64,000 nt of DNA from Candidatus Brocadia sinica JPN1 (GCF_000949635.1 NZ_BAFN01000001.1:3903052-3967051); one strand, 5' to 3'; positions 10,513-30,207 are shown, counted from the stretch's first letter. Notes: generated by a model from the sequence alone, not told the origin. Program-made: numbers and translations.

Positions 10513-13266
<2,754 letters not shown>

Positions 13267-13569
13267 TGGTGAGGAATTTCAATTACCCCCCATAATCCCC
13301 GCCGTAAACAGGAGGGAACAGGGAATAGGTGTTAAGTTAAGCGATTTGAGGTGCATGGACAAGCCGTGTTCATCCGTGCCTGCTTGCGACTCACCAGGGT
13401 ATGAAAACTGCTGGAGATGTTGCAATCCATTGTCCCCCGCCAGCGGGGGACATGAAGGATTCAATGCAAACAGGAAATTAACAGTGATTATTGATTCTTT
13501 AACTTAACTTCTACGGGAAACGGGGGAAGTCGTCTAAGACCTGGTTTATAATGACACAGAGGAGGATAT
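13267..13569. other. Intergenic gap between hybrid kinase and Hpt gene
   Basis: No convincing gene. A 10-bp perfect hairpin with a 2-base loop lies at 13431-13452 (tgtcccccgc / gcgggggaca), with looser matching arms (caatcc / ggattc) outside it, giving a roughly 45-bp palindromic element. An open frame at 13253-13507 overlaps the kinase end, has no ribosome site and has low-quality composition, so it is not called. The Hpt gene has its own strong ribosome site (gaggagg) near 13559. Confidence 0.6.
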
Positions 13570-13923
13570 ATGGAAAAAGAGAACTTTAACATAAACGAGG
13601 CATTATCCCGATTGGATGGTGATGCGGGGTTACTGAGGGAGCTCGCTGGATTATTTCTTGAAAACTATCCGGCGCAATTAGAAGGGATACAAAGCGCCGT
13701 TGCGCAAAACGACAGCAAAGCATTGGAAAACGCTGCCCACAACATCAAAGGTTCTGCAGGAGTCATTTGCGCGAAACCTGTTTTTGAGGTGGCGCAGAGA
13801 TTGGAAATTATGGGAAAGGAGAATAATTTGACCTCTGTTAAAGAAATATATGCTACGCTCGAAAAAGAGCTAGGGCGTCTCAGGTCAAAGTTGGAAGCTA
13901 TTATAGTGGAGAACCCACTATGA
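13570..13923 (+). CDS. Stand-alone Hpt phosphotransfer protein
   Basis: A 117-residue histidine phosphotransfer domain. The motif AAHNIKGSAGVI carries the phospho-accepting His, and LRELAGLFLENYPAQLEGI is the helix before it. It would relay phosphate between the receivers of the upstream hybrid kinase and a final regulator. Its stop overlaps the start of the HDOD-GGDEF gene (ATGA, 13920-13923), so those two are translationally coupled. A ggagg ribosome site precedes the ATG. Confidence 0.92.
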   Translation: MEKENFNINEALSRLDGDAGLLRELAGLFLENYPAQLEGIQSAVAQNDSKALENAAHNIKGSAGVICAKPVFEVAQRLEIMGKENNLTSVKEIYATLEKELGRLRSKLEAIIVENPL

Positions 13924-15455
13924 CAAGGGATGATATCTTAAAAATTGTCCTAGAATCGCCTTCTTTGCCTACCTTGCCTGTAGTTGCATGTAAGCTTCTT
14001 TCCATTTCATCGAATGAAAAAACAGGTATGAAGGAGATTGCAGATATGGTTTCAAAAGATGTTTCCCTGTCTGCAAAGGTATTAAAGACGGCTAATTCCG
14101 CCTTTTACAATCTTCCCCATAAAGTAAGTACAATACACCAGGCAGCATCAAGACTCGGAATAAATACAATCAGAAGCATGCTCCTTTCTTTTTCTTTTTT
14201 ATCCATAAGGGCTAAGGATAAAAATGACACCTTTAATTACGAAAAATTCTGGGAGCAATCACTCGCCAACGCAGTAGCGGCAAAGCTTATCATAACAGAG
14301 ATCGTCAAATCCGATTGGGAAGAGATCTTCGTCTCCGGACTTTTAGAAAATATCGGAGAACTGATTATAGCCCTTTCATTTCCTCAAGAATATGAACAAG
14401 TATTATCAGAGGCGTCCGGGAGTGATAAGGATATCATTGAATTGGAACAGCAAATTATAGGAGCAGACCATGCCTTTATCGGATACGAGGTTGCCAAAAA
14501 CTGGAATTTTCCCGATATATTATTGACTCCCATACACTATCACCATTGTCCGGAAAATTATAAAGGTGACGACAAAAAGCTTAAGGTTATCGTTAACGTT
14601 GTCTATCTGTCGGATCTGCTTACCAACATTCTTTACTCAAACAAGCCACTGGAATATCATCAAAAATTTCGAAATGAATCCGAGGCAATACTTGGGTTCG
14701 ATGATACAATCATTGACAGGATATTGGAACATGTTACTTCAGAAATCAGGAAAACCGCCGATGTATTTGGTTTTCATATTGAAAATCAAAAATCGATAGA
14801 ACAAATCCTGCAAGAGGCAAATGCAGCCCTGAGTATCATAAACCTGACGTGCGATCAGACGAACAGAAAGCTCGTTGATGCCCTGGTGCAATTGCAAAGA
14901 CTCACCAAAGATCTGGAAGAAAAGAACAACCGGCTCGATAAACTCGCACAATTGGACAGCTTAACAGAAGTATATAATCATGGTTATTTTCAGGGCTATC
15001 TTGAAAATGAGATTAGTCTTTCAGCCCGTAAAGGTACCACCCTCAGTCTCATCCTGGCAGACGTCGACGATTTCAAAATATTCAATGACAAATATGGACA
15101 TCAAACCGGCGATTTTATTTTGAAAGAACTGTGCAAAGTAATAAGACAATCGCTCAGAAGCCATGACATAATCGCCCGTTATGGCGGAGAGGAATTTGCG
15201 ATTATCCTTGTTGAAACGACCGGAAAAGATGCTCAAAGCGTGGCAGAAAAACTTCGTCAATCAATCGCCCTGCATAATTTTATCTATAAGGACAAAAACT
15301 ATCATGTAACAATATGTTGCGGCATTGCTGAAATAAGGCCTGCCGTAGATCCTTTCACGAAAAACGATCTCATTGATTTTGCAGACAAGGCCTTGTTCGA
15401 GTCGAAAAAGAAAGGACGTAATTGTGTCACATTGTATACACAAAGAAATAAATAG
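13920..15455 (+). CDS. HDOD-GGDEF signalling protein
   Basis: A 511-residue cytoplasmic protein. Residues about 8-210 form an HDOD domain (SLPTLPVVACKLLSI; DVSLSAKVLKTANSAFYNLP), a helical linker follows, and a diguanylate cyclase GGDEF domain (about 340-508) has an intact GGEEF signature (IIARYGGEEFAIIL) and a complete RxxD inhibitory site (RSHD). It should make c-di-GMP under control of the HDOD module. It overlaps the Hpt gene by 4 bp, tying the phosphorelay to c-di-GMP output; how the signal passes is inferred. Confidence 0.92.
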   Translation: MTRDDILKIVLESPSLPTLPVVACKLLSISSNEKTGMKEIADMVSKDVSLSAKVLKTANSAFYNLPHKVSTIHQAASRLGINTIRSMLLSFSFLSIRAKDKNDTFNYEKFWEQSLANAVAAKLIITEIVKSDWEEIFVSGLLENIGELIIALSFPQEYEQVLSEASGSDKDIIELEQQIIGADHAFIGYEVAKNWNFPDILLTPIHYHHCPENYKGDDKKLKVIVNVVYLSDLLTNILYSNKPLEYHQKFRNESEAILGFDDTIIDRILEHVTSEIRKTADVFGFHIENQKSIEQILQEANAALSIINLTCDQTNRKLVDALVQLQRLTKDLEEKNNRLDKLAQLDSLTEVYNHGYFQGYLENEISLSARKGTTLSLILADVDDFKIFNDKYGHQTGDFILKELCKVIRQSLRSHDIIARYGGEEFAIILVETTGKDAQSVAEKLRQSIALHNFIYKDKNYHVTICCGIAEIRPAVDPFTKNDLIDFADKALFESKKKGRNCVTLYTQRNK

Positions 15456-15775
15456 TTCCTTACAAAAAATATTTTAACATTTCCAGCAAAAATATTTTTA
15501 TCAAAAACCGGAATACCAGGTAATATCAAGAACGTATGAGCTAATTTTTAAGGTAACGAACTTTTAAGGTTTTTAGAAGACTAACTCGAATGAGTCGGAA
15601 GAAAACCTATAATAATACAGGAGATTCCGAAACAAGTTCGGAATGAAAAAACGCAATTCGGAATGACAAAAGCGGAAAATGTCATGCTGAATCCTGATCT
15701 TCATCAGGACACGCTTATTTCAGCATCTCCTATCAAAAATACTCTTCTGATTCGTTCGGGAAAGGAGTAAATTTT
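15456..15775. repeat. Gap with palindromic intergenic element
   Basis: No gene. From about 15619 to 15733 there is a repeat-like stretch: aggagattccgaaac, two tandem variants of attcggaatga, and gtcatgctgaat then tcagcatctcct, whose ends (ggagat/atctcc) are inverted. This resembles the dispersed tcattccga/gtcatgctga-type palindromes common in large bacterial genomes. A second hairpin (gact...agtc within aggtttt...aaaacct) lies at about 15568-15610. A ribosome site (aaggag) for the next gene is at about 15762. Confidence 0.5.
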
Positions 15776-16171
15776 ATGGCAAAAATACTTATTGTCGATG
15801 ACTCTGCCCTTATGAGACACACCTTGCAACACATTGTTGAGAAAGCGTGCCATGAAGTCGTAGGCTTAACCGGGGATGGAAATGAGGCAGTAAAGCTATA
15901 CAAGGAACTCAAACCTGACTTGGTAACAATGGATATCCTGATGGGGGAGAGCGATGGAATTCAGACATTAGCGGCTATTAAAAAAGAGGATCCCGGCGCA
16001 AACGTAATAATGATTACTGCGCTTGGCTGGGAGAATAAGAAGGAGGATGCCCTCAGGTTAGGCGCCAAAGGATATATCAAAAAACCTTTTGATGCGCAAG
16101 AAATCAGGAAGGAAATAGAGAGAGTAGTAGGGAAAAGTCAGATAGAGACGCTTCGAACAATATTAAATTAG
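15776..16171 (+). CDS. CheY-like single-domain response regulator
   Basis: A 131-residue receiver domain with no output domain. It has the acidic pair D8-D9 (ILIVDDSALMR), phospho-acceptor D53 (LVTMDILMGESDG), the conserved Thr (MITALG) and the Lys of YIKKPF. It is the kind of diffusible regulator that could accept phosphate from the upstream Hpt protein, but a 320-bp gap separates them. It could also act in taxis. Confidence 0.92.
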   Translation: MAKILIVDDSALMRHTLQHIVEKACHEVVGLTGDGNEAVKLYKELKPDLVTMDILMGESDGIQTLAAIKKEDPGANVIMITALGWENKKEDALRLGAKGYIKKPFDAQEIRKEIERVVGKSQIETLRTILN

Positions 16172-16291: not shown

Positions 16292-16630
16292 CTAGATTGC
16301 GGCTTCACCTGACTCCTTTGTGCGAACACGATAAGCATTTTCTACATGAGAAATGAATATCTTTCCGTCACCAATGCTTCCCGTCTGGGATTCACTAATG
16401 ATGGTATTTACAATGTTTTCCACATCGGCATCTCTTACCGTTATTTCGATTTTGATCTTTAAGAGCAGATCAATCCGGAATCTCCTTCCACGCCATATCT
16501 GACTTATACCCTTTTGATTGCCGTGTCCGTTGACCTGCGTAACAGTCATTCCCGGATAGCCCAACTGTAACAAAGCATCCTTGACAACATCAAACCTTTC
16601 TGGCCTTATTATAGCTTCTATTTTTTTCAT
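16292..16630 (-). CDS. glnB: P-II family nitrogen regulatory protein, Tyr51 replaced by Phe
   Basis: A 112-residue P-II signal protein, which binds ATP/ADP and 2-oxoglutarate and controls nitrogen targets. The start at 16630 gives the canonical MKKIEAIIRPERFDVVK; 11 upstream codons are probably untranslated. The body is standard (GMTVTQVNGHGNQKG; QTGSIGDGKIFI; YRVRT). The T-loop is not: residue 51, the uridylylated Tyr of enteric P-II, is Phe, and residue 46 is Trp. Control by GlnD-type uridylylation at this site is therefore excluded. It is divergent from the nitrite-locus sensor at 17001, so a role at the transporters is plausible. Confidence 0.93.
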   Translation of the reverse strand: MKKIEAIIRPERFDVVKDALLQLGYPGMTVTQVNGHGNQKGISQIWRGRRFRIDLLLKIKIEITVRDADVENIVNTIISESQTGSIGDGKIFISHVENAYRVRTKESGEAAI

Positions 16631-17000
16631 AATAATGCCTCCATTCATTGAGCAAAATTTCACTCTGTTACTGCCAAAATTATTAACTCATTATTCTCTG
16701 TCAAAGGCATAATCGATATTGAAATCCTACAACCAAACATTCCCCCGGGAAATTATTTTCCGGATGCGCGCTCATATTCAGACCATATCAAGCCTCTACT
16801 TTGTAAACATTTGTATACTATCTATTGACATATGATACTTTACAGATTATAATATGTCAAGTATATATTCGTATACTTAAAAAGGGCAAATAATCAGCTA
16901 CAGAGCCATTGATGAAAATGACAGCGGGACACATCTTACTGAATTTACCAATACTGATAATTTCCCGGTGATGTAATTTTTCCTTAGAAAGGGCAAGACT
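16631..17000. other. Divergent regulatory gap between P-II and nitrite-locus genes
   Basis: No gene. It holds a consensus promoter (16825-16853), an inverted repeat overlapping it and two GTATAC palindromes (16813-16818 and 16871-16876) placed 58 bp apart around it. A ribosome-like site (agaaaggg) lies at about 16985. The P-II gene would be read leftward from the other side of the gap. Confidence 0.6.
16825..16853 (+). promoter_or_regulatory. Consensus sigma70-type promoter for the nitrite-locus sensor gene
   Basis: TTGACA at 16825-16830, a 17-base spacer and TATAAT at 16848-16853 are an exact match to the housekeeping promoter consensus. A perfect 9-bp inverted repeat (ttgacatat 16825-16833; atatgtcaa 16852-16860) spans both boxes, a natural operator position. 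The start would be near 16860, about 140 bp upstream of the gene at 17001. Confidence 0.75.
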
Positions 17001-18413
17001 ATGATTGGAATATTAAAAAAACGGATTGTCGTGGTCATTATTACATTTGTGTTTTTCGGGCTATTTCCCCTGGTATTGTTCAGGATGCTTGCATTTCCAA
17101 AGGCGAGCGCAGAGTTAAAACATGGAGTAAAAAATAATCTTGAGGGTCTGCTCAATAAACAAAAAGATATGCTAACCCTATTGCGGCATGAGAGGGAATC
17201 ACATGCCAGGGCTATTTCAGATGCCATTCTTAGCACATTATTGATTCATGGTGATGAAAAATTTGTAAACCTTATAAATGGGAAAAACGAGCATGAATAC
17301 CTCAGGTTAGAAACGCAGTTGGAATGCACAAAGGCTGATTATGGATATAGAGGAATATTTATTTGTGACGGCGCAGGTATCATTCAGGCGACAACAGAAG
17401 ATGAAATATCTATGATTGGCAAGAATATTATGAAGGAAAAGGCATTCCGCAATATCCAGGAAACCTTATATGATGGAAAAACATATTTTTCCGATGTGAT
17501 TCATTATTCTTATAGCGACAGTATTAAAGAGGGAAAAGAAGACGAGATACCTTCGTTGTTTCTGTCGTATCCCATTAAAGGTGAAAACCACGATGTGATA
17601 GGAGCCGTGGTGCTATGGATGGACACCTCGATGCTGAATCAGGCCATGAAAAATGTTGTATTTGGAAAGACCGGTGAAGCTTATCTGGTAAATAAAGAAG
17701 GTATCATGATTACTCAATCAAGATTTTCAGAACACATCAAAAATACCGGTGATACTTGCAAAACATGTCATGTTGTCGCAGACCCTGATAATCAAATGAT
17801 TACAAAAGGGGTGAAAAGGTGCATTACGGAAAAGGTGAATGGCTATGATCTGAAGGGATACAGGGATTACGGTGGGTTACAAGTCGTGGGCGCATGGAGT
17901 TGGCTGAAAGATTTCAACATGGGACTCATTGTTGAAATTGATGCAGATGAAGCTTTCTGCGCCTTAAATAATATTAGCTCGATGACAAAGTCGCTTATGA
18001 TAGCGATGCTCATTCCTGCATTTGTAATGGCAATATTGACTTACAGAAAGTTAAGCACTGGTTATATGCTCAAATATTTGTCTGTACCTCACAAAGCGTT
18101 TCTGGGAGTAACAACCATCATTACCATTGGATTTGTCATAGCAGTCCTGGACGGTTATGAATTAAGGAAAGAGCGCGGGTATCTTCGGGAGCAAAAATAC
18201 AAAGTACGCAATCCTTTCAATACCCTGGGTTCCCTTGTAGTACAGAGAGATGAAGATTTCATTAAGAGTAAGATTTCCACGTTTAAGAAGAAACTTCCGA
18301 CCTTCAAATCAGAAAATACTATGAACAAGGAAAATAAGGAGAAAGGGGTTGTCGAAAACAATGCAACACAATTATTGGAAAAGTCCGTTATGGCATGGGA
18401 GATAAAACAGTAA
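17001..18413 (+). CDS. Membrane Cache-domain protein with a CXXCH heme-type motif, no output domain
   Basis: A 470-residue membrane protein. TM1 is about residues 10-28, an extracytoplasmic double-Cache sensor about 35-315, TM2 about 329-347 and TM3 about 366-384, with a charged tail ending in a possible coiled coil. CKTCH at 253-257 is a c-type heme attachment motif inside the sensor region; the related protein at 21576 lacks it. There is no HAMP, kinase or cyclase. The tail after TM3 (GYLREQKY) resembles the start of the protein at 23910. It is the first gene of the plus-strand nitrite locus; sensing of nitrogen oxides or redox state is inference. Confidence 0.8.
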   Translation: MIGILKKRIVVVIITFVFFGLFPLVLFRMLAFPKASAELKHGVKNNLEGLLNKQKDMLTLLRHERESHARAISDAILSTLLIHGDEKFVNLINGKNEHEYLRLETQLECTKADYGYRGIFICDGAGIIQATTEDEISMIGKNIMKEKAFRNIQETLYDGKTYFSDVIHYSYSDSIKEGKEDEIPSLFLSYPIKGENHDVIGAVVLWMDTSMLNQAMKNVVFGKTGEAYLVNKEGIMITQSRFSEHIKNTGDTCKTCHVVADPDNQMITKGVKRCITEKVNGYDLKGYRDYGGLQVVGAWSWLKDFNMGLIVEIDADEAFCALNNISSMTKSLMIAMLIPAFVMAILTYRKLSTGYMLKYLSVPHKAFLGVTTIITIGFVIAVLDGYELRKERGYLREQKYKVRNPFNTLGSLVVQRDEDFIKSKISTFKKKLPTFKSENTMNKENKEKGVVENNATQLLEKSVMAWEIKQ

Positions 18414-18438
18414 AAAATGTTTATGAAGGAGAATTTGT

Positions 18439-18831
18439 ATGGAGAATATACGCGCATCAACGGAGAGCGTATCAAAAACGCTTCCTGATGTAAAGGACGC
18501 AAAGGGTTGGTATGAGTATGAGCCCTCTTACGATGGCGTCATTACCCATATCGATGCCAGTGGGGCAAAGCTTTTTGGATTTCATTCAGCCGATGACGTA
18601 ATCGGTAAGCAGGTCAAAGAATTATATGCGCATCCATTTGATCATGAAAAGACATTATCTATGCTCTTTCGGGATGGGCAGGTATATGGTTATTTTACTT
18701 TGATGAAGACAAAAGATGATACCTTGTTTTACATAAAGCAAACAAGTTCTTTAATTACGGAAGGATTATATAAATGTCCTCTAAAGGTAAAGACCGAATT
18801 TAAACTGTTTCATTATCTGCACTTAAGTTAA
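18439..18831 (+). CDS. Stand-alone PAS-domain protein
   Basis: A 130-residue soluble protein that is one PAS fold (WYEYEPSYDGVITHIDASGAKLFGF; DDVIGKQVKELY; FYIKQTSSLI). It matches the PAS repeats in the protein at 21576 but diverges after about residue 105, where those continue into an FRDIT segment, so the C-terminal end may be frayed. It follows the Cache protein after 25 bp with a strong ribosome site (gaaggag), probably as its cytoplasmic partner. No output domain is attached. Confidence 0.75.
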   Translation: MENIRASTESVSKTLPDVKDAKGWYEYEPSYDGVITHIDASGAKLFGFHSADDVIGKQVKELYAHPFDHEKTLSMLFRDGQVYGYFTLMKTKDDTLFYIKQTSSLITEGLYKCPLKVKTEFKLFHYLHLS

Positions 18832-18921
18832 CAATCGTTTGAACTATGCTATTTTTATCATCGCTAACAAATCACAATTATTTCCGCATGGCGATACATT
18901 TACATTATCAGGAGATTTTTT

Positions 18922-20136
18922 ATGAATATGTCTGCAAATGAATCGATACAAACACCAAACGGCAATACAAGGGTAATGATACTTGCAACAGTGGCATTTG
19001 CATTGTGCTTTGCAGGTTGGACGTTGTTTGCTCCTTTGGCAATATATTTTCAGGAAGAATTTAATCTGTCTTCCACATCGGTGGGATTATTGCTTGCAAC
19101 CCCGGTATTACTTGGTTCCCTCGCAAAAATTCCTATGGGCATTGTGACTGACAAGTACGGCGGAAGACTCGTTTTTACGATTATGCTTCTTTTTGGGTTC
19201 GCATCTCTGTTTTTTACTGGTTTTGCGCATAGTTATGGTTTTTTGTTAGTGTGTGGATTCTTTTTCGGTTTAATAGGTTCTTCTTTCGCTGTTGGAATTC
19301 CGCACGTCTCGGAATGGTATCCAAAGAAAAAACAGGGATTTGCATTGGGGGTTTATGGCGTGGGAAACGCCGGCACTGCCCTCTCCGCTTTTGGAGCGCC
19401 ATTTATCGCAGAATCTTTGGGATGGAATAAGGCATTTATCATTTATGCATTCCCATTGCTCCTGATGGCATTTATCTACTGGTTTTTTACTTCCAATGCC
19501 CCAAAATCAACGAATGTTAAGGTTTCTACCATAAGCGATAAACTGAAACTCTTTAAATCTTCCAGACTAGCCTGGATTTTTTGCTTATTCTATTTTATGT
19601 TTTTTGGATTCTTCGTGTGCTTTTCGATATGGTTGCCATCGTATCTTTGCGATTTTTATACTATTTCACCAGTAAAGGCCGGGGGCTTCACATCGATATT
19701 TGTATTTCTTTCGTCATTTACCCGAATTTTGGGGGGGTATCTCGGCGACAGATTCAATGGAAGAAAAATAATGGTACTCCTTACGGTAATTGTACTTGTC
19801 ATAACGGTATTCCTTAATTTAAACGTATCGCTGACAACCTCACTCATGGTGTTCTACATTATGGGAACCTGTCTTGGCATTGGCAATGGTGTCGTATACA
19901 AACTCGTGGCAGAATACTTTCCAAAAGATACAGGAGCTGTAGGGGGGCTGGTAGGAGCGGCAGGAGGTCTTGGCGGCTTCTTTCTCCCAATAATTTTAGG
20001 CACAATTAAAGATTATACGAACAATTATTCTCTCGGATATATCTTTGTATCCCTCGTTTGTCTCATGTGTCTTTCATTTATGGAGGAAAAAACCCTGACG
20101 GGCACACAACGAAATGTAGCAACTGCAATGCACTGA
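18922..20136 (+). CDS. narK: NarK-type nitrate/nitrite transporter (MFS)
   Basis: A 404-residue major-facilitator transporter with about 12 membrane segments. It shows the NarK nitrate-signature glycine repeats, GVYGVGNAGTALSAFGAP in TM5 and GLVGAAGGLGGFFLP in TM11, and LAKIPMGIVTDKYGGR between TM2 and TM3. NarK proteins move nitrate and nitrite by symport or antiport. The gene has a ggag ribosome site and sits in a plus-strand run with an HPP and a FocA transporter, consistent with nitrite handling in anammox metabolism. Confidence 0.9.
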   Translation: MNMSANESIQTPNGNTRVMILATVAFALCFAGWTLFAPLAIYFQEEFNLSSTSVGLLLATPVLLGSLAKIPMGIVTDKYGGRLVFTIMLLFGFASLFFTGFAHSYGFLLVCGFFFGLIGSSFAVGIPHVSEWYPKKKQGFALGVYGVGNAGTALSAFGAPFIAESLGWNKAFIIYAFPLLLMAFIYWFFTSNAPKSTNVKVSTISDKLKLFKSSRLAWIFCLFYFMFFGFFVCFSIWLPSYLCDFYTISPVKAGGFTSIFVFLSSFTRILGGYLGDRFNGRKIMVLLTVIVLVITVFLNLNVSLTTSLMVFYIMGTCLGIGNGVVYKLVAEYFPKDTGAVGGLVGAAGGLGGFFLPIILGTIKDYTNNYSLGYIFVSLVCLMCLSFMEEKTLTGTQRNVATAMH

Positions 20137-20817
20137 AGGCAGAGGATGTATAAGACAAAAGACAGAGAATTTTTTTTAAGAACGCATCAAAAGAATGATG
20201 AGCTTGAGAGTCAAGACAAAACCTATCGGCTTTTCAAAACAGTACAGTGGCAAGGTACGCCTTGCCACTAGAGCTGGTTTGAAATTCCTTAACATTTAAC
20301 TAGGCCTTCGGCACTTACACAGATATCTTTTTACGACAAAATTCCACCCCCTTACCCCTGCTGTGAGGGGGATTAAGGGGGTGGAGAAAAGTTTGAAATT
20401 CCTCTACGCTTAACTGGCAATTTGTAAAATCATATCCCCTTATTCAGATAAATATCCACACCTGCCTTTTGGATTATTTCCAGACGAAGCGCAAAGGACT
20501 GCTTAATGAAGCATCCCTGATCACTCCATCAGCTTGTTACCATATGTTTATTTGTGCCTTCTAAATAACCGTATGTATACATAATATTTAATTGTGCAAA
20601 TAGCAATACAACACATGAAACAACCCTTCCACAATGAAAGGATCCGTTTGGTCCGATAGTTCTTCACTATTTCTGTTGATTACAATCATCATTTGTGTAA
20701 TGTGTCACTTTGCTACCTTTTATGTAAAATATGAGCGACATTTTGTTTTGCCAAAAAAATTGGCATGTATTTTGTGTAAATTTTAGTAAACGTTTGATTA
20801 CATAATGAGGCGCGCGC
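20137..20817. other. Long intergenic region with palindromes, upstream of the HPP gene
   Basis: No gene on either strand. It holds a 9-bp hairpin agtggcaag/cttgccact (20246-20269) that may end the narK transcript, though no T-run follows, and a C/G-run palindrome at 20344-20384 related to the one inside cbiD. Short direct repeats tttgaaattcct flank that palindrome (about 20279 and 20391). Another GTATAC palindrome near 20573 echoes those around the promoter at 16825. Confidence 0.55.
20344..20384. repeat. C/G-run palindromic repeat
   Basis: A 41-bp imperfect hairpin: ccaccccctta at the left and taagggggtgg at the right, with cccctg/gaggggg-type bases between. It is similar in character to the in-frame insertion at 4421-4497 and is probably a member of the same dispersed noncoding family. 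Confidence 0.55.
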
Positions 20818-20982
20818 ATGGAAAGGAAATTGTGGATGGTCAAAAAGAGGCAAACAGCAGAGGAAAAGAAGGTCTTGGACGTTGCATTTGAAGTACAAAA
20901 GGATACCGAAGAAGACAAAAGAGGTATTTCGGTGTATCTTACTGATTTTATCAGAAAATACTCAAATAAGGAGAGGGATAAA

Positions 20983-21519
20983 ATGCCATTCACAGAAAGG
21001 ATTAACAAGGTTAGCTCAGTTATAAAAAAATTACCGATGACTCCGCATTCTGCGATTCCTTCAAGAGAAGTATGGCTTTCCTTATGGGGCGCATTTTTGG
21101 GCATAGGGTTTACCGCATTGCTTGCCTATCTCTGGAGGTTCCCTATGCTCCTGGGGCCGTTCGGCGCCAGCTCTGTGTTGATTTATGGCGCCTATAAGTC
21201 TCCGCTGGCACAACCGAGAAATGTTCTTCTGGGACATTTCGTTTCAGCGTGCATTGGAATAGTCGTTCATGATTTCTTCGGCGCTACGTTTTGGTCTATT
21301 GCGCTTGGTGTTGCCCTTGCCCTGGTACTTATGACAGTAACCTATTCAATTCATCCGCCAGCCGGCGCAACGGCATATATAGCCGTTCAAACAGGCGGGT
21401 TAGGCGCTGCATATATGTACATCTTCAATCCGGTTACTCTGGGCGCCTTTATTTTGGTATTAATTGGTGTGATTTTCAATAAACTGGGGAAAAGGGAATA
21501 TCCTACACACTGGTGGTAA
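20983..21519 (+). CDS. HPP-family membrane protein, candidate nitrite transporter
   Basis: A small membrane protein with four to five membrane segments and the family's HPP motif (YSIHPPAGATAYIAV). Some plant and cyanobacterial HPP proteins carry nitrite across membranes, which fits its place between narK and focA. I prefer the ATG at 20983 because aaggagaggg lies at the right distance; this gives 178 residues, the usual length. The frame is open to an ATG at 20818, which would add a charged 55-residue N-terminus without a good ribosome site. Confidence 0.82.
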   Translation: MPFTERINKVSSVIKKLPMTPHSAIPSREVWLSLWGAFLGIGFTALLAYLWRFPMLLGPFGASSVLIYGAYKSPLAQPRNVLLGHFVSACIGIVVHDFFGATFWSIALGVALALVLMTVTYSIHPPAGATAYIAVQTGGLGAAYMYIFNPVTLGAFILVLIGVIFNKLGKREYPTHWW

Positions 21520-21575
21520 AACTTCTCAAGAGGTAGCGCATTACAACCTTTGGTTCAATTTACGGAGAAAAACGA

Positions 21576-23864
21576 ATGTACATATCGATTAAAAATCGAC
21601 TTATTCTTTTCCTGATACTATTTACCCTGTTACCGTTTGTTTTGCTCAGAATTATAGCCTATCCACGGATACAATCCGATGTTCAGGAGGTGCTCATACG
21701 AAATCTCGATGGTATTGGCCACAAGCAAGCGCAATTAGTAACGAATTGGATCAATGAAAGGATGAAGAACGCACGGATAATTGCAAATAATCCATTGATG
21801 ATCAGGTGCGTAAAAATTACAAAAGAGGATAAAGAGTATCCAGATATTGTTCAATACATAGAGACTGTAAGAAATGAGTGTGGTTATAAGGGTGTATATA
21901 TCAGCAACGATAAGGGATCGGTCACTGTTTCCACAAGAGCAGAAGAAATAGGAAATGACATTTCAAAAACAGATTATTTTCGCGAAGGGATACAAGGAAA
22001 TACTTTTGTATCGGGTATTATGCCATCTGAAATTCCGCTGACAAACGAATTTGGCCAGAAAGAACTCGGCATGCCTACCATGTTTGTTTCAACACCGTTG
22101 AAAGATACGGATGGAGGTATAATCGGCGTTGTCTCTGTCAGAGTAGATGTAAATAACCTGAATGAACTGATGCTCAGCCTCAATTTAGGGAAGACAGGCG
22201 AGACTTATCTGGTAAATAAAGACGGATATATGGTCACGGAATCACGGTTTGCTGCCCACCTCAAAGAAATGGGACTCGTGAAAAAGAGATGCGCTTTAGA
22301 ACTGAAACTCATTGATCGGGAAACTGGTGAATTAACGAAAGGTGTTCAGATCTGTGTTTCGGGCATCAATGGTTTTGATGCAAAGGGCTACAAAGATTAC
22401 AGCGGCGTAACGGTGTTAGGCGCATGGCGCTGGCTGCCCGAATATAATTTGGGTGTACTATCAGAAATCGACAGGGATGAAGGCTATGGAGCCGCTTATA
22501 ATCTGAATTCTATTGTAAGTTTTGTGTTATTAATCCTTGCGTTCCCCTTTGCATTGGCAGCATATTTTATCGGGAGAAAGACTTCGATACCGATTATCAG
22601 ACTTACTGAAGCAACTGAGAAAATGGCTTCAGGAGATTTAACCCAAAGGGTAGATATCAGGAGAGAAGATGAAATTGGTATGTTGGCAAACTCCTTTAAT
22701 GCTATGGCAAAGTCTTTAGATGAGAAGACAAAAGAAATAGCAGCATCCGAAAAGCGGTATAGGGAATTGTTTAACTCTCTAAAGGAAGGGGTGTATCAGT
22801 CTGAGCCGGGGGTAGAGGGTGTGTTTACTTTTATAAACAATGCAGGTGCAGAAATCCTGGGGTATAGTTCTCCGGAAGAAATAATTGGAACGAGGGTAAA
22901 AAACATTTATGGAGACCCGGAAGACAGAAGACGGCTTTGCGAGAAGCTTGAGAAGGATGGGATATGGAGGGAATTTGTATCCCTTTGTAAAAGGAAGAAC
23001 GGTGAGAGTTTTTATGCAGAACGCACAAGCAATTTGCTCAGAGATGAAAGAGGGAATCCAATTGCTATCCATGGGGTATTCAGGGATATCTCAGTGAGAA
23101 AGAAAGCGGAGATGGAAGTTGTTGAGTCCGAGAAGAGATACCGTGTGTTATTCGATTCGCTCAAAGAAGGGGTATATCAGTCTGAACCAACAGAGGACGG
23201 GGTATTTACCTGGATCAACCAGGCAGGGGTAGAAATTCTTGGTTATAAGTCTCCAAAGGAAGTGATTGGGACGAAGGTAAAGGATATGTATGTGAATCCT
23301 GATGACCGGAGAAAAATAGTTGAGAAGTTAACGCTTGAAGGTGTCTGGAGGAATTTTACCACCTTATGCAAGAGGAAAAATGGTGAGCGTTTTTATATGG
23401 AACGCACATCAAACCTGGTTTCAGACGATAAGGGGAAACCGGCGCGCATAGATGGGATATTCAGGGACATTACTGAGCGGAAGAGGTTAGAAGCGGAGTT
23501 GCAGGAATCCGAGAGACATTACAGGGAATTGCTGAATTCATTAAGAGAGGGAATATATCAATGTGAGCCAACTGAAGATGGAGTATTTACCTGGATTAAT
23601 CAGGCAGGAGCAGAGATACTTGGTTACAACTCACCCGAAGAAGTGATTGGAACACGGGTAAAGGATGTGTATGTGAATCCCAATGATCGAAAAGAATTAA
23701 TTGTGAAGTTGGAAAAGGAAGGGGTCTGGAGGGAATTTACTTCGTATTGTAAGAGGAAAAATGGAGAGCGTTTTATTTCTGAGAGGACATCCACTTTTGA
23801 ATGGGATGAAAGCGGTAATCCAATCAGAATTACAGGTGTATTTAGAGATATAACAGAAAGATAA
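21576..23864 (+). CDS. Cache-HAMP sensor with three tandem PAS repeats and no output domain
   Basis: A 762-residue membrane protein: TM1 about residues 8-27, extracytoplasmic double Cache about 35-300, TM2 about 310-332, HAMP about 333-386, then three PAS units of about 126 residues each (about 392-515, 518-640, 644-762). The repeats share YQSEP/YQCEP, INNAGAEILGY-type, VKDMYVNPDDR and FRDITER segments and are alike at DNA level too, so they are recent duplications. It stops right after the third FRDITER, where a kinase or cyclase usually begins. The equivalent of the CXXCH site of its relative at 17001 is absent. Confidence 0.88.
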   Translation: MYISIKNRLILFLILFTLLPFVLLRIIAYPRIQSDVQEVLIRNLDGIGHKQAQLVTNWINERMKNARIIANNPLMIRCVKITKEDKEYPDIVQYIETVRNECGYKGVYISNDKGSVTVSTRAEEIGNDISKTDYFREGIQGNTFVSGIMPSEIPLTNEFGQKELGMPTMFVSTPLKDTDGGIIGVVSVRVDVNNLNELMLSLNLGKTGETYLVNKDGYMVTESRFAAHLKEMGLVKKRCALELKLIDRETGELTKGVQICVSGINGFDAKGYKDYSGVTVLGAWRWLPEYNLGVLSEIDRDEGYGAAYNLNSIVSFVLLILAFPFALAAYFIGRKTSIPIIRLTEATEKMASGDLTQRVDIRREDEIGMLANSFNAMAKSLDEKTKEIAASEKRYRELFNSLKEGVYQSEPGVEGVFTFINNAGAEILGYSSPEEIIGTRVKNIYGDPEDRRRLCEKLEKDGIWREFVSLCKRKNGESFYAERTSNLLRDERGNPIAIHGVFRDISVRKKAEMEVVESEKRYRVLFDSLKEGVYQSEPTEDGVFTWINQAGVEILGYKSPKEVIGTKVKDMYVNPDDRRKIVEKLTLEGVWRNFTTLCKRKNGERFYMERTSNLVSDDKGKPARIDGIFRDITERKRLEAELQESERHYRELLNSLREGIYQCEPTEDGVFTWINQAGAEILGYNSPEEVIGTRVKDVYVNPNDRKELIVKLEKEGVWREFTSYCKRKNGERFISERTSTFEWDESGNPIRITGVFRDITER

Positions 23865-23909
23865 AAGCAATTATTTCATGCAAATACCCTGAACGAGGAG
23901 TGCAAAATT

Positions 23910-24443
23910 ATGAGAAATCAGGCGGTACATGGTTTGTCCGTTAATGCAAAGACACTTATTGCAATATTGATATTTGTGAATGTTGGCTTTGCGGCAAAAA
24001 TGCTCAATAAGTATTACACCATGAAGGAAGCAGGGTATGTCAGGGAAAAGACGTTTCAGGAGCAGCTAGCGCAAAGAGTAATGAAGTCCTTTGGTTCCGT
24101 GGAAGAGTTAAACAGGATGGTTAATGATATAACGAGACAAAAAGAAGAGGCCGAAAGGATTGCGGCTTCCTTTAAGGAACAAGGTGAACAGTTAAAAGAG
24201 GTAAATAACAAAATTGAAGATACAAAGACAAAACTGGAGGCGGAAAAGGCCCTATTACAAAAAGAGATCTGGGGTCTGGAGGATTCATTGTCATTAGCAA
24301 GAAAGACGCTCAGTAGTAAGGATTTGTCAATTCAGGAACTTATGAAAAACTTAGAAACAACTGAAAAAGAGAATGTGGCGCTCCGGAAACGTCTCGGAGA
24401 ACAAGCAAAGACACCGGAAGGATGGAGCCTGCCTCATCAATGA
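23910..24443 (+). CDS. Membrane-anchored coiled-coil protein of the nitrite locus
   Basis: A 177-residue protein with one N-terminal membrane segment (about residues 13-31, ending VGFAAKMLN), the segment GYVREKTFQEQ, then a long heptad-like coiled coil (about 60-165, rich in Lys, Glu and Leu). The TM plus GY-x-RE part resembles the C-terminal third of the Cache protein at 17001. It starts 45 bp after the PAS-repeat sensor with a gagg ribosome site and may be its partner. I recognise no family; methyl-accepting-protein-like signalling helices are one possibility. Confidence 0.7.
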   Translation: MRNQAVHGLSVNAKTLIAILIFVNVGFAAKMLNKYYTMKEAGYVREKTFQEQLAQRVMKSFGSVEELNRMVNDITRQKEEAERIAASFKEQGEQLKEVNNKIEDTKTKLEAEKALLQKEIWGLEDSLSLARKTLSSKDLSIQELMKNLETTEKENVALRKRLGEQAKTPEGWSLPHQ

Positions 24444-24652
24444 ATTCATTCCCTGTAATACGGATGAAAGATTTTACGCAAAAATGCTGAAAAAACTTTT
24501 GTAAAGAATTTCTTTATCTGCTGAAAAGAAAGGAGGTGTGCTAAATAAACTATTCCATTGCAATGAGTGATTGTATTGAGATCAAGAAGAGGGGGTAAAG
24601 AATTAGCGTTATTTTAAAACGATGTATACAACATTTGAGAGGAGAACAATTA

Positions 24653-25540
24653 ATGTTATATACCGGAAACGTAGATGCAATTGCAGCGATATCTTTAAAG
24701 AAAGCTACTGCAATGAAGCACAGTCTAATAGGCTTCCTGACGCTTTCTGTAGTGGCGGGTTTTTATATTGGATTTGGTGTCCTTCTCATGGTTATTTCGG
24801 CTGCTCCTGTTGCAGCGCTAAACCCTGGAATAGGGAAAATCGTTGGAGGCGCAGTATTTCCTATCGCTTTGATATTGGTAGTTATTGGCGGGGCTGAGTT
24901 GTTTACCGGATATAACTTACTGATATTAAAAGGTACTTTTCGGGGCACAGTATCATTTGGCGATGCAATGTCAGGCTGGTTTTGGACATACTTAGGTAAT
25001 TTGGGTGGATCCATGATTTTTGCGCTTTTAATTTATATGTCTGGTGTATTCGCCCCTGATCCATGGCATGCCTTCCTGAACAAGGCGGCTACCTATAAGA
25101 TGAATGCGCCATGGTGGGAATTGTTTTTCAGAGGCATCTTTTGCAACTGGCTTGTATGTTTGGGAATATGGAGCTGCTTTAGGGTTACCAACGACAGCGC
25201 CAAGATAATGATGTGCTGGTGGGTTTTGTTCTGTTTTGTTACTACAGGAATGGAACACAGCGTGGCGAATATGACGTTTTTGACAATTGCGAATTTACTG
25301 CCCCATGGCCCTGAAATTTCATGGGGTAAGATGTTTGGCCATAACCTTGTTCCTGTTACCCTGGGTAATATCGTGGGTGGCAGTTTCTTCGTTACATTCC
25401 TCTACTGGTTTGCAACGGTTATGGACGAAAAAGGGGCAAGGACTTTGGAGGCTGTAAAGGGCGGTTCTGGAAGTGCCGGGTTACCACGAGCAGGCGGGGC
25501 TCCTGAAGAGATCAAAGATATTAAGGTGAAGATGAAGTAA
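24653..25540 (+). CDS. focA: Formate/nitrite transporter family channel (FocA/NirC type)
   Basis: A 295-residue six-helix channel subunit that forms pentamers for small monovalent anions. Markers are ATAMKHSLIGFLTLSVVAGFY, GGAELFTGYNLLILKG and GMEHSVANMTFL. The ATG at 24653 is chosen because it follows gagaggagaac; an in-frame ATG 18 bp upstream would give MRGEQ and overlap the ribosome site. Among NarK, HPP and two sensors in this locus, nitrite is the likeliest substrate, but formate cannot be excluded. Its C-terminal tail is Gly/Ala-rich. Confidence 0.93.
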   Translation: MLYTGNVDAIAAISLKKATAMKHSLIGFLTLSVVAGFYIGFGVLLMVISAAPVAALNPGIGKIVGGAVFPIALILVVIGGAELFTGYNLLILKGTFRGTVSFGDAMSGWFWTYLGNLGGSMIFALLIYMSGVFAPDPWHAFLNKAATYKMNAPWWELFFRGIFCNWLVCLGIWSCFRVTNDSAKIMMCWWVLFCFVTTGMEHSVANMTFLTIANLLPHGPEISWGKMFGHNLVPVTLGNIVGGSFFVTFLYWFATVMDEKGARTLEAVKGGSGSAGLPRAGGAPEEIKDIKVKMK

Positions 25541-25821: not shown

Positions 25822-26412
25822 GTGCAAATCAGAAAATCTACCGAGATTAGGAGACAGCAAATTGTTGATATTATTCGAACGATTATTTCTTCCAGAGGAA
25901 TAGAACACGTTACCATAAGTGAAATAGCCGGAGAAATAGGAACTACCAAAGGGGCTATTTATCGGCATTTTAAGAGCAAAAGGGATATATTAAGTCTGTT
26001 AATAGATAATGTTGAGGAAACCCTCATGGAAGCGCTGGATAAAGCAATGGTGGAAAAAGATCCGGTACAAAATCTAAAAAATATCCTGCTTGCCCAACTT
26101 ATTCTTGCGAAAACCCGACGCAAAACATCCTTCGTTGTTATCATGGGAGCCATGCAGTTTAGTGATCCCTTCATACGAAGAAAGATTTCGCAGCTAATAG
26201 AGAAGTATCTTCGGAGAATAGAAAAGCTGCTTGCAGGCGCTCTAAAATCAGGATTGATAAAAAAAGACATTAATCCAAAGACGTCTGCAATCGTCTTTAT
26301 GGGACTCATTCAGTCCACAATAACTGTGTGGTCATATAAAAATTTCAAATTTGTGCCTCAAAAAATTCATGCGGATCTGTGGGACGTTTACAAACGTGGA
26401 ATAGGCGTTTAA
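25822..26412 (+). CDS. TetR/AcrR family transcriptional regulator
   Basis: A 196-residue regulator starting at GTG with a strong aaggagg ribosome site 4 bases upstream. The N-terminal helix-turn-helix is typical (ISEIAGEIGTTKGAIYRHFKSK); residues about 70-196 form the ligand-binding helical domain. It precedes the large MscS-type channel by 66 bp on the same strand and may regulate it; that target is inference. The ligand is unknown. Confidence 0.92.
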   Translation: MQIRKSTEIRRQQIVDIIRTIISSRGIEHVTISEIAGEIGTTKGAIYRHFKSKRDILSLLIDNVEETLMEALDKAMVEKDPVQNLKNILLAQLILAKTRRKTSFVVIMGAMQFSDPFIRRKISQLIEKYLRRIEKLLAGALKSGLIKKDINPKTSAIVFMGLIQSTITVWSYKNFKFVPQKIHADLWDVYKRGIGV

Positions 26413-26478
26413 TTTGTCAGGTGTTTATAACCAATATGCAGAAATGAAAATGAATATAAAGTGCCGGGAGAATCAATT

Positions 26479-29400
26479 ATGTCTTTGAAGTATATGACGG
26501 TAAAAAAAAGAACTATTCTCACTCTCATCCCTTTCTCCAAAAACGGTTTAGCGTTGTATCTGGGTATTTGTCTCTTTTGGTTAGGCTTCGGTATCGATAT
26601 TCAGGCACAAACTATGGGAAAAAAGGATATTGAAATAAATCTCTCGGAAATGGGTGTAACAGTAACAACAGACGACGTTAAAAGGGCTAAAATAAAAGAT
26701 GAAGAGGTGAAAACGAACGTTACAAAGTCCATGGATGAAATAAATTCCTCTATATCTAATTTAGTAAGAGACAGAAAAGCGATGGATGCTTACCTTGAGA
26801 GACTCCGGCAGGAAAAAGCGGATTACCTGGCTAAGGAAGTCAGTCAAAAGTTTTTAGAATTACTGGATAAGGAAATTGCCATAGTTAAGGAAAAAACAGA
26901 TATCGACAATGAGCAGATAGAGACATATAAGGACCGGATTGAAGTGCTCCATGATCAGTCAAAAGCTTATGACGAAATAGTTGTATTATTAAAATCGATA
27001 TTAAGGTTGGAAGAAACACTTTTAACTTCCCATGAACAAGTCCCCATAGTGAAAAAAGAGGCAGACATTGCAAAAAGTTACATTACGGCAGTGCAAGCCA
27101 GCATCAGAGAGAAGGAATCGGTGATATCCTTTTTTATGAACAGATTGGAAGAGATAAAAGCTAAGGTATCTGAAGATGAAAGGGATCTTGCAAAGTATCT
27201 GGAATCTTTAAAAACGGAGATTGGAAACACGGAACTTGCTCATACGATGCAGGAAAAAATTGATAGTATTTTATTATGGAAAAAGGCCATCGGCGCCCAG
27301 TGGATTGCCATATTTGAGACCCGGTTGGGAACGTCCAGGATTCGTTATGATAAAGCGCAGCAGGAATTGAAGAATGCAGAATTCAATGCCGCGTTTTTAG
27401 CCGAAAAGGCAACACGCTTGGAAGAGAGGCTGAGGGAAGAAGAATTAATAAGAAAACAGGCAGAATTGGAGGCGGCAAAAAGAGCCGAAGAGGAAAGCCG
27501 AAAGATTGCAGAAAGGACTAAGGCTGAAGTTGAAAAGGCCTTGCAGGAGGCAGCAAGGAAGAGTGAGGAAATTGTCATGGAGCAAATGACGACGACCTCA
27601 CCGGAAAAGAAACGATTGTTGGAGTTGGAGGCTGAGGTTCACAAACAAGTTGGGCTTATTGCCAAAAGAAAAGACGAGCTTATTACAGAGGGTGCGCAGA
27701 TATACAAAGACTTTACCGAATATAAAAAGTTAGAGGCGGATATCGGCCTTTTATTGAGCAAGGGAGGAACAACAAAAGAGATCGACGAATCACTAATAAA
27801 GATAGAGACGGAAATGAAGCGGTTCTCTGAGGCAATTACAGCAGTGGAAAGCCTTCTCCCCCTGGTAAAGGAAGAGAAAAAACTCATTTCTGAAAATATT
27901 GTCAAGTCCAAAGAAGAAATAGCAAAAATCGAAAATGAAGCGGCCTCTTTCACGGACAAAGAATTGGCGCGTCAGGCAATAGAACATGCAAACCATATCA
28001 TGAAAATGATAGAAGAACAGTCTGGACTTATATCTACGAGACTGGACAGATTACAGGAACGATTGAAAATCAAAAAAAATGCACTATTACTGCTGGAAGA
28101 GACCAAAGAAAAATTGATTACTCTGAAAGCAGCCAACGTTTGGATGAGAGTAGAAAGCACGATTTCTTTCCAGACAATTCAATCGGTGTTTAAGGACTTC
28201 GTGGATTGCTATGACCGGCTTGATTCGCTCTATCATATAATTCCGGCCCAGATAAAGAATTTTCTATCGTATACCTCCAATAAAAGACATACAGTTGCTT
28301 TTTGGATAAGATTCTGTGGATTAATAGGGATCATTGCCGTGTGGTATTTTTCAAAAAAATACATTCGCCGGTGGAGCATGTTCAAAATACAGGCATTGTA
28401 TGAAGCGGCAGGCTTATCCTACTATAAATCAAGGCTATTTCCCAGCCTTTTACTCGTGCTTCAGAAGAGTATAAATGCCATATGGCTGGCTATCCTTTCC
28501 GCATCTATACCTGGTATTCTGGGTATAAAAGCTCCCGTAATAACAGGGACAATATACGTATTAACCTTTTTTGCGGTATATAGAATCCTAAGACACCTTC
28601 TTTTTGAGTCTTTTAGCCCGGAAAAAGGGGATAGAAAGTTAGTTACCCCTTTGGCATATATTTCTCGCACACATCTTTACAAATCATTGAATATTATTGT
28701 ATTGTTTTCCTTTGTTTCTTTATCACTAATCGTCGTTCTCACTACATTTGGGTACAGGAGTGATGTAGTCGAATTACTCTGGTTTGTATACCGGATGGGG
28801 ATTTTAATCCTTTTGCTGTGGCTTGCAACTCAGAAAACACTGATATTCAAATTATTGCCGAGCGCCGAAACTCAATTTGGTAAACTTATTCATCGCATAA
28901 TAACGGTAATCTATCCAATTTTCATTACCTTTGTTGTATTGTTATTTGCGATAAGGACCCTGGGATACCCGGTACTTTCCTATGTGTTATTAAGGACATG
29001 TATAAAGAGTTTTATCATCGTGTTTATCTCTTTCTGGGTATGGAAATATTTGTATCATCGTTTGGTTCACATAAGAGAAAAGCGTCTTAAGAGAGAAAAT
29101 CTCAAAAAAGGCAGCCCTGAGGAAAAAAGATTTCATGCTGTTACGGTAATCTATCATATTTCGCTGAACTATCTCATTTCAATTATTGCGGCAATAATTA
29201 TTATCCGCGTATTGATCAGGACATTTCGTGATGCGGTAGGTTCTCCGGCTGCTCCTTATCTGGTACAAAAAACCTTTGGGCAGATAGGGATAATTTTAGG
29301 GGCGATTGGCAGCGGACTACGGTATCGTTTCTTCCTGGAAGAAGGGAGATATACAACACCGATAAAGATTATCATAGCATTAGTCGTGCTGTTTATATCC

Positions 29401-30207
29401 TTTTTTGCCGCACGGCATATAAAAAAACTGCTGGAGGAAAAGATATTTTATAAACTTCGTCTAGAACGCGGGCTGAAGCAAACACTCTCTACCCTGATAC
29501 GATATGTCGTCATAGGCATCTCGGCGCTTATTGGCCTTAATATAGCCGGAATTCCGTTAAGAAGTCTGGCTTTTTTTGCAGGCGCTTTTGGTATCGGCAT
29601 CGGATTTGGAATGCAGAATATCATCAGCAATTTTGTAAGCGGCATTATCCTTCTCTTTGAGCGCCCCATGCGTGTCGGAGATATTATTACCCTGGAGGAC
29701 GGCACATTAGGCACAATCGAAAAGATCAGTGCAAGGAGCACGACAATTAACACACCGGATGAGATTACCATAACGGTACCCAATTCAAAGTTTATTGAAA
29801 GCAGGATAAACAACTGGACACATCCATCAGCGCGTATGAGGGGTTCCGTAAAAGTGGGCGTAGCATATGGTTCTGATACAGCATTGGTAAAGAAGTGTTT
29901 GCTGGAAGTTGCCAGACTGAATCCCAATGTAAGGACATATCCGGAACCCTTTGTGCGGTTCTCCGAATTTGGTGATTGTGCGCTGAAATTTGAATTATAT
30001 TTCTGGGCAGATGATCCGGGGAAACGTTGGTTTATTATGAGTGAACTCAATTTTGCTATCGATGAAGTATTTAAAAAGAATCATATCAAATTTGCCTTCC
30101 CTCAAAGGGATATTCATATACGTTCAGTAGCACCTTTTCATCTTCAGGATATACAGGAACACGTGAAACAAGATGATCATCAGGGTAATGAACAGACAGA
30201 TGCATAA
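26479..30207 (+). CDS. Large mechanosensitive channel of the MscS family (MscK/KefA-like)
   Basis: About 1242 residues from the ATG at 26479 (ribosome site gggag), with a signal segment ending near AQA. Residues about 50-600 are a long periplasmic coiled coil with an Arg/Glu/Ala-rich part. From about 625 to 1030 there are around ten membrane segments. The C-terminal MscS core (about 1030-1220) has the pore helix GAFGIGIGFGMQNIISNF and FERPMRVGDIITLEDGTLG. MscK-type channels open on osmotic downshock. The next gene overlaps its end by 35 bp in another frame. Confidence 0.9.
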   Translation: MSLKYMTVKKRTILTLIPFSKNGLALYLGICLFWLGFGIDIQAQTMGKKDIEINLSEMGVTVTTDDVKRAKIKDEEVKTNVTKSMDEINSSISNLVRDRKAMDAYLERLRQEKADYLAKEVSQKFLELLDKEIAIVKEKTDIDNEQIETYKDRIEVLHDQSKAYDEIVVLLKSILRLEETLLTSHEQVPIVKKEADIAKSYITAVQASIREKESVISFFMNRLEEIKAKVSEDERDLAKYLESLKTEIGNTELAHTMQEKIDSILLWKKAIGAQWIAIFETRLGTSRIRYDKAQQELKNAEFNAAFLAEKATRLEERLREEELIRKQAELEAAKRAEEESRKIAERTKAEVEKALQEAARKSEEIVMEQMTTTSPEKKRLLELEAEVHKQVGLIAKRKDELITEGAQIYKDFTEYKKLEADIGLLLSKGGTTKEIDESLIKIETEMKRFSEAITAVESLLPLVKEEKKLISENIVKSKEEIAKIENEAASFTDKELARQAIEHANHIMKMIEEQSGLISTRLDRLQERLKIKKNALLLLEETKEKLITLKAANVWMRVESTISFQTIQSVFKDFVDCYDRLDSLYHIIPAQIKNFLSYTSNKRHTVAFWIRFCGLIGIIAVWYFSKKYIRRWSMFKIQALYEAAGLSYYKSRLFPSLLLVLQKSINAIWLAILSASIPGILGIKAPVITGTIYVLTFFAVYRILRHLLFESFSPEKGDRKLVTPLAYISRTHLYKSLNIIVLFSFVSLSLIVVLTTFGYRSDVVELLWFVYRMGILILLLWLATQKTLIFKLLPSAETQFGKLIHRIITVIYPIFITFVVLLFAIRTLGYPVLSYVLLRTCIKSFIIVFISFWVWKYLYHRLVHIREKRLKRENLKKGSPEEKRFHAVTVIYHISLNYLISIIAAIIIIRVLIRTFRDAVGSPAAPYLVQKTFGQIGIILGAIGSGLRYRFFLEEGRYTTPIKIIIALVVLFISFFAARHIKKLLEEKIFYKLRLERGLKQTLSTLIRYVVIGISALIGLNIAGIPLRSLAFFAGAFGIGIGFGMQNIISNFVSGIILLFERPMRVGDIITLEDGTLGTIEKISARSTTINTPDEITITVPNSKFIESRINNWTHPSARMRGSVKVGVAYGSDTALVKKCLLEVARLNPNVRTYPEPFVRFSEFGDCALKFELYFWADDPGKRWFIMSELNFAIDEVFKKNHIKFAFPQRDIHIRSVAPFHLQDIQEHVKQDDHQGNEQTDA

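Follow-up and report, generated by a model that had tools for sequence, protein, structure and literature searches.

Putative output-less Cache/PAS/coiled-coil receptors, divided into parts in two ways, encoded with nitrate/nitrite transporters of anammox bacteria

We have analysed a window of 64,000 nucleotides from the genome of Candidatus Brocadia sinica JPN1 (4.08 Mb in 3 contigs), in which seven open reading frames, all on the plus strand, follow one another within positions 17001-25540. The first encodes CACHE1 (17001..18413, 470 aa), which is built of TM1, a double Cache domain, TM2, TM3 and a tail, and the second encodes PAS1 (18439..18831, 130 aa), a single soluble PAS protein with a match to Pfam PAS_9. 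They are followed by a NarK-type nitrate/nitrite MFS transporter (18922..20136, 404 aa; Pfam MFS_1) and by an HPP-family membrane protein, a putative nitrite transporter (20818..21519, 233 aa; Pfam TM_HPP). The next gene encodes CACHE_PAS3 (21576..23864, 762 aa), which has a dCache-HAMP-PAS-PAS-PAS architecture (Pfam dCache_1, HAMP and three PAS domains). TMCC, a single TM helix with a coiled coil (23910..24443, 177 aa), and a FocA/NirC family (FNT) nitrite/formate channel (24635..25540, 301 aa; Pfam Form_Nir_trans) complete the order; for the channel, the ATG at 24653, which is preceded by GGAG, seems a likelier start than 24635. A sequence-only reading of this DNA had proposed the same genes in the same order and at these coordinates, and the open reading frames and Pfam agreed with it. 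The dCache_1 family (PF02743) scored 77.8 in CACHE_PAS3 and 43.7 in CACHE1, slightly below the gathering score of 45. For NarK, the best NCBIfam match was TIGR00886, the NarK subfamily, at 222 bits versus a cutoff of 312, and the GxGNG motif was present in 49/49 homologues; the FNT channel matched PF01226 at 246 bits versus a cutoff of 34.6. The source genome holds seven FNT (FocA-type) genes, two tandem pairs among them.

The surroundings of the block were also annotated. A PII (GlnB/GlnK) gene, assigned by Pfam, is a divergent neighbour on the minus strand (16292..16663); it stays near CACHE1 or NarK in several relatives, as an association only, and PII, universal stress protein and Na+/H+ exchanger-type genes recur near the NarK/CACHE1 locus in L036, L038, L082 and L085. 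Further upstream (10513-16171) lie genes for a hybrid Cache histidine kinase, Hpt, HDOD-GGDEF and a CheY-like receiver, which are absent beside CACHE1 in the relatives examined. Downstream (25822-31375), a TetR gene precedes those for a 1248-aa protein, presumably MscS/MscK-like, and for another protein that we take to be DUF481-like; in G015 and some Brocadia, this trio is likewise found as a group next to NarK.

According to Pfam, HisKA, HATPase, GGDEF, EAL, HTH and MCP domains are absent from all four sensor-like proteins, CACHE1, PAS1, CACHE_PAS3 and TMCC, as had been stated earlier for kinase, cyclase and DNA-binding domains. TMCC has no Pfam family above cutoff, and its weak matches (SNARE, P10 and others) were dismissed as coiled-coil artefacts. 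The four proteins could be functionless, decaying remnants of kinases, considering that kinase-bearing paralogues, HKA and HKB, exist. We regard this explanation as hardly credible, because length and order are conserved family-wide, almost every full-length CACHE_PAS3 of the Brocadiaceae measuring 762 aa, about half of the residues are identical even in Scalindua homologues, and products of the corresponding Kuenenia cluster are expressed (PMC6423088). A truncation artefact was rejected as well, since the lengths are fixed across the families; the proteins are not recent truncations, and truncation was what the sequence-only reading had named as able to refute it.

Gene order was compared in loci annotated from Brocadiales relatives (Brocadia, Jettenia, Loosdrechtia and Scalindua). 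The genes fall into two operons. Operon A has the order REC_A - CACHE1 - PAS1 - NarK - SLAC1: NarK comes after CACHE1 in 33/33 distinct loci, and in these 33, PAS1 stands between the two in 28, REC_A in front in 19 and SLAC1 behind in 21, the operon extending to Scalindua (L051, L121-L123). Operon B has the order radSAM - HKB - NtrCB - HPP - CACHE_PAS3 - TMCC - REC_B - FocA, and a Cache-PAS gene is located upstream of TMCC in nearly all of 25 loci. The sensors are thus conserved with the transporters across anammox genomes, and random gene order is rejected. Fuller copies of both operons stand elsewhere in the source genome (A at C1:3011-3020k, L028; B at C1:1546-1556k, L029), and the window copy of A is without REC_A and SLAC1, that of B without the kinase, NtrC and REC_B. 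On the sequence evidence, the window block is a pair of shortened duplicates, each derived from one of two nitrate/nitrite transport operons that are conserved in anammox bacteria. The halves of its seven-gene order lie apart or convergent in relatives (L036, L039), and by this comparison the window shows copies of two distinct operons that have been joined locally; the interleaving of sensors and transporters noticed earlier holds for the window, but not as a unit for the relatives. In a scan of a genome collection, full-length CACHE1 was confined to anammox lineages, the next matches having about 30% identity or less and covering the Cache part only. We conclude that the gene arrangement is real, conserved and, in the open-access literature, previously undescribed. 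In a Scalindua-type genome (L083:8635-12059), a Cache-PAS2 gene is paired with a TM-coil gene, and a beta-carbonic anhydrase-like gene comes next.

The two parallel sets of sensors proposed earlier were supported by the homology of their parts, and the same homology changed how many sensors there are. Residues 6-50 of TMCC are homologous to residues 357-401 of CACHE1, which comprise TM3 and a KxxGYxREQ segment (18069..18203, plus strand; hhalign P 96.7, E 3.6e-10), and P did not exceed 2.2 in the controls, which were five further TM segments and one reversed sequence. A search with TMCC independently recovered the CACHE1 tails. PAS1 and the PAS domains of CACHE_PAS3 belong to the same subfamily (hhalign P 99), as against P of about 3 or less between PAS1 and the PAS domains of HKB, and the Cache domains of both sets are homologous. 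Instead of four sensors, the parts would form two split receptors: set A would be composed of a Cache-TMcoil protein and a PAS protein, and set B of a Cache-HAMP-PAS3 protein and a TMcoil protein, each giving one composite receptor that is predicted to be output-less. A Scalindua-type protein (L087:8360-9124, minus strand) joins the TM-coil to a CACHE_PAS3-type PAS domain, and with it all three pairwise fusions, Cache-PAS, Cache-TMcoil and TMcoil-PAS, are found. The existence of all three suggests that, in each set, the three parts come together in one complex. On the one hand, the parity of the helix count places the CACHE1 tail outside the cytoplasm; on the other hand, a coil inside is favoured by the TMcoil-PAS fusion and by the charges flanking the TMCC helix, at odds with that parity. 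We offer these proteins as a case of one receptor divided into parts in two different ways.

CACHE1 carries CKTCH at residues 253-257 (17757..17771, plus strand), a CXXCH c-type haem attachment motif that falls in a loop region within the membrane-proximal Cache module. CXXCH was found in 23/33 distinct CACHE1 homologues, including 7/7 of the window-type clade, with C, C and H fixed and the inner residues variable, and was absent from all Cache paralogues compared. A model of the Cache part (residues 1-348, from 92 sequences) reached a pLDDT of 87, and a full-length model from 17 sequences a pLDDT of 40. The former has the dCache fold, its TM-scores by target length reaching 0.77 for Tlp3, and is similar to dCache sensors of amino acids and dicarboxylates. 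None of its top structural matches is labelled a haem protein, a profile search of the PDB with the CACHE1 sequence gave no match, and CACHE1 had no Pfam match to DUF3365/Tll0287 (sCache_heme) at E 0.1. We consider that CACHE1 is a probable c-haem double-Cache sensor, in which covalent haem is predicted.

NO is an anammox intermediate. CACHE1 might be imagined chiefly as a haem protein outside the cytoplasm that is active in redox or binds NO, serves the transporter locus and is not a signalling receptor. According to a preprint, c-haem single-Cache proteins are capable of NO binding or have redox roles, and in sCache_heme/DUF3365 (Tll0287) a CXXCH is inserted in an outward-facing Cache fold as in CACHE1 (PMC12889525). 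However, those proteins have a single Cache domain and belong to another family, whereas CACHE1 is a dCache_1 protein whose haem is only predicted. The invariance of C, C and H in the homologues that keep the motif fits the haem-protein explanation, but CXXCH was lost several times with the gene order unchanged, indicating that haem is not the core function. We judge this explanation improbable.

A conventional signal route exists around the full operons, which come with Cache kinases, NtrC, receivers and sigma-54-like promoters. HKA and HKB, encoded elsewhere in the source genome, are Cache-HAMP-PAS-HisKA-HATPase kinases adjoining NtrC/sigma-54 activators; the full operons are linked to a kinase and regulator, either HKB-NtrCB or HKA-NtrCA near by, and the window copies are without such a link. 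The acidic pocket is complete in REC_A and partly degenerate in REC_B. Upstream of REC_A, GG-N10-GC was found in 16/16 operon-A leaders, mostly at -54 to -71, the two departures from this spacing stemming from start-codon calls, compared with 0.01 expected and with 0-2 of 15-35 leaders in other well-sampled gene families. This leader has been lost from the window copy of set A. Upstream of HPP, TGG-N10-GT was found in 17/23 leaders against a background of 0.0025 per 470 nt, and the window is included with the pattern match TGGCATGTATTTTGT (20761..20775, plus strand), a sigma-54-like -24/-12 element. This pattern has 4 matches genome-wide, of which 2 are the two HPP leaders; the other two, inside a gene or facing a gene end, were taken as chance. 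Set B has a variant -12 element, with GT at its end where GC is usual. RpoN is present in the genome, and for operon A, with GG-N10-GC, RpoN and an NtrC activator, the predicted promoters are sigma-54-like. In both operons, the -24/-12 element is closely preceded by a palindrome with a T run behind it (before REC_A in L028, L048, L051 and others; before HPP in L029 and others), even though operon A has differing upstream genes; the palindrome is a candidate terminator, insulator or activator site.

As both receptors lack an output, the signal from each is probably received by a partner kinase or else by the transporter. We lean to the former, with close to an even chance that the output-less composite receptors are split co-sensors feeding a two-component/sigma-54 circuit for nitrate/nitrite transport. 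In this case, the receptor would read an extracytoplasmic nitrogen-oxide or redox signal, set A perhaps through covalent haem c, and would modulate its cognate Cache-HAMP-PAS histidine kinase, HKA or HKB, by hetero-association. The kinase would then act through NtrC on sigma-54 transcription of the transporter operons, and direct contact with the transporter may be a second effect. Considering that receptor and transporter come from one operon, flux and sensing would be matched. Gene presence was compared in 29 genomes: HKA and NtrCA were found in the same 12, REC_A in 11/12 of these versus 0/17 of the genomes without them, and PAS1 in the 12 plus one more, receiver and kinase having thus disappeared jointly. 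The presence of HKA involves about four changes on the HKB+NtrCB tree, at least three by well-supported branches.

However, CACHE1-NarK is retained in G002, G007, G008 and G010 without HKA, NtrCA, REC_A and PAS1, and Scalindua retains HPP-CachePAS-TMcoil and FocA without an HKB orthologue. These kinase-less sensors, the window copies with no adjoining kinase or receiver, the GT variant of set B and the conflicting indications on TM-coil topology stand against the co-sensor model. The four genomes that keep CACHE1 without any PAS1 form one clade, and the loss of PAS1 may be a single event.

GlnK is known to act on AmtB by direct binding and gating. In a similar manner, CACHE1 might bind and gate NarK, and CACHE_PAS3/TMCC might do so with HPP/FocA, a possibility that we find doubtful but that is the chief competitor of the co-sensor model. 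It would explain why CACHE1 adjoins NarK in every locus, even where the kinase set is gone, and why duplicate copies retain the sensors with the transporters and shed kinase and receiver; moreover, CACHE1 has almost no cytosolic portion that a kinase could read. On the other hand, close orthologues of NarK and FocA stand without adjoining sensor genes (L049, L084, L085), no sensor-transporter fusion was seen in the loci examined, and in L083 the Cache-PAS/TMCC pair precedes the carbonic anhydrase gene, which indicates that the coil follows the Cache protein and not the channel. The co-sensor model accounts for the promoters and the shared losses, and the transporter-contact model for the remaining linkage. 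A further model, which we hold to be unlikely, is a kinase-free module in which a split Cache/PAS/TM-coil receptor on nitrate/nitrite transporters, in set A with covalent haem c, directly adjusts their flux according to NO, nitrite or redox state, the two-component link being a later addition.

A direct transport-sensing complex had been put forward as new. Transporter-sensor complexes are already known: in DctA-DcuS of E. coli, a sensor that has Cache/PAS outside the cytoplasm and a further PAS in the cytosol is tied to the transporter of the sensed anion, through contact at the TM2-PAS linker (PMC8307970). DcuS itself is a kinase, whereas the transporter-linked anammox proteins are kinase-free and the kinase is a separate gene; the conserved sensor-transporter link here, CACHE1-NarK, is one of gene order. 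In the same bacterial group, Ks-Amt5, an ammonium transporter-kinase fusion of Kuenenia, ties a transport fold to signalling (PMC5764959), but as one fused protein, whereas the sensor and transporter genes here are unfused. The preferred co-sensor reading has a parallel in NreA of Staphylococcus NreABC, a nitrate receptor that lacks an output and modulates a kinase distinct from it (PMC8199190). NreA, however, is a soluble GAF protein, whereas the anammox receptor would be made of a membrane Cache, PAS and coil. We know of no homology between them.

Nitrite supply is the key variable of anammox, and what we know of its sensing by anammox cells comes from expression data. By gene order (HPP, Cache-PAS, TM-coil, REC, FocA), Kuenenia kuste3050-3055 is the same operon B, and CACHE_PAS3, TMCC and REC_B would correspond to kuste3052, kuste3053 and kuste3054. 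Hu et al. described kuste3050-3055 as a nitrite transporter gene cluster, and all its genes were down when NO replaced nitrite, 3.0 to 36.5-fold, with kuste3055 down 36.5-fold and kuste3052-3054 3.0 to 5.0-fold (PMC6423088). The HPP gene, kuste3051, was up under nitrite limitation (PMC7438415). The proteins of kuste3052, 3054 and 3055 were detected (PMC6423088), so that, assigned by gene order, two sensor-set proteins would be among them. In both papers (PMC6423088, PMC7438415) the sensor genes are entered under hypothetical or unknown, and neither their nature nor the parallel with operon A appears there; in the open-access literature, we found no description of these proteins as receptors. 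Our analysis accounts for genes listed merely as hypothetical in transcriptome papers, puts names to the genes and parts, and to the predicted promoters, through which the main nitrite transporter operon may be regulated, and would add a probable c-haem double-Cache sensor. Among the relatives, a single protein with cNMP-binding, sigma-54 activator and 4Fe-4S membrane domains is encoded upstream of a Cache-PAS3 gene (L089:6432-9083), and the SLAC1-type anion channel has double length in Scalindua (L051:13026-15407, L121, L123), with two Pfam SLAC1 stretches in one protein in L051.
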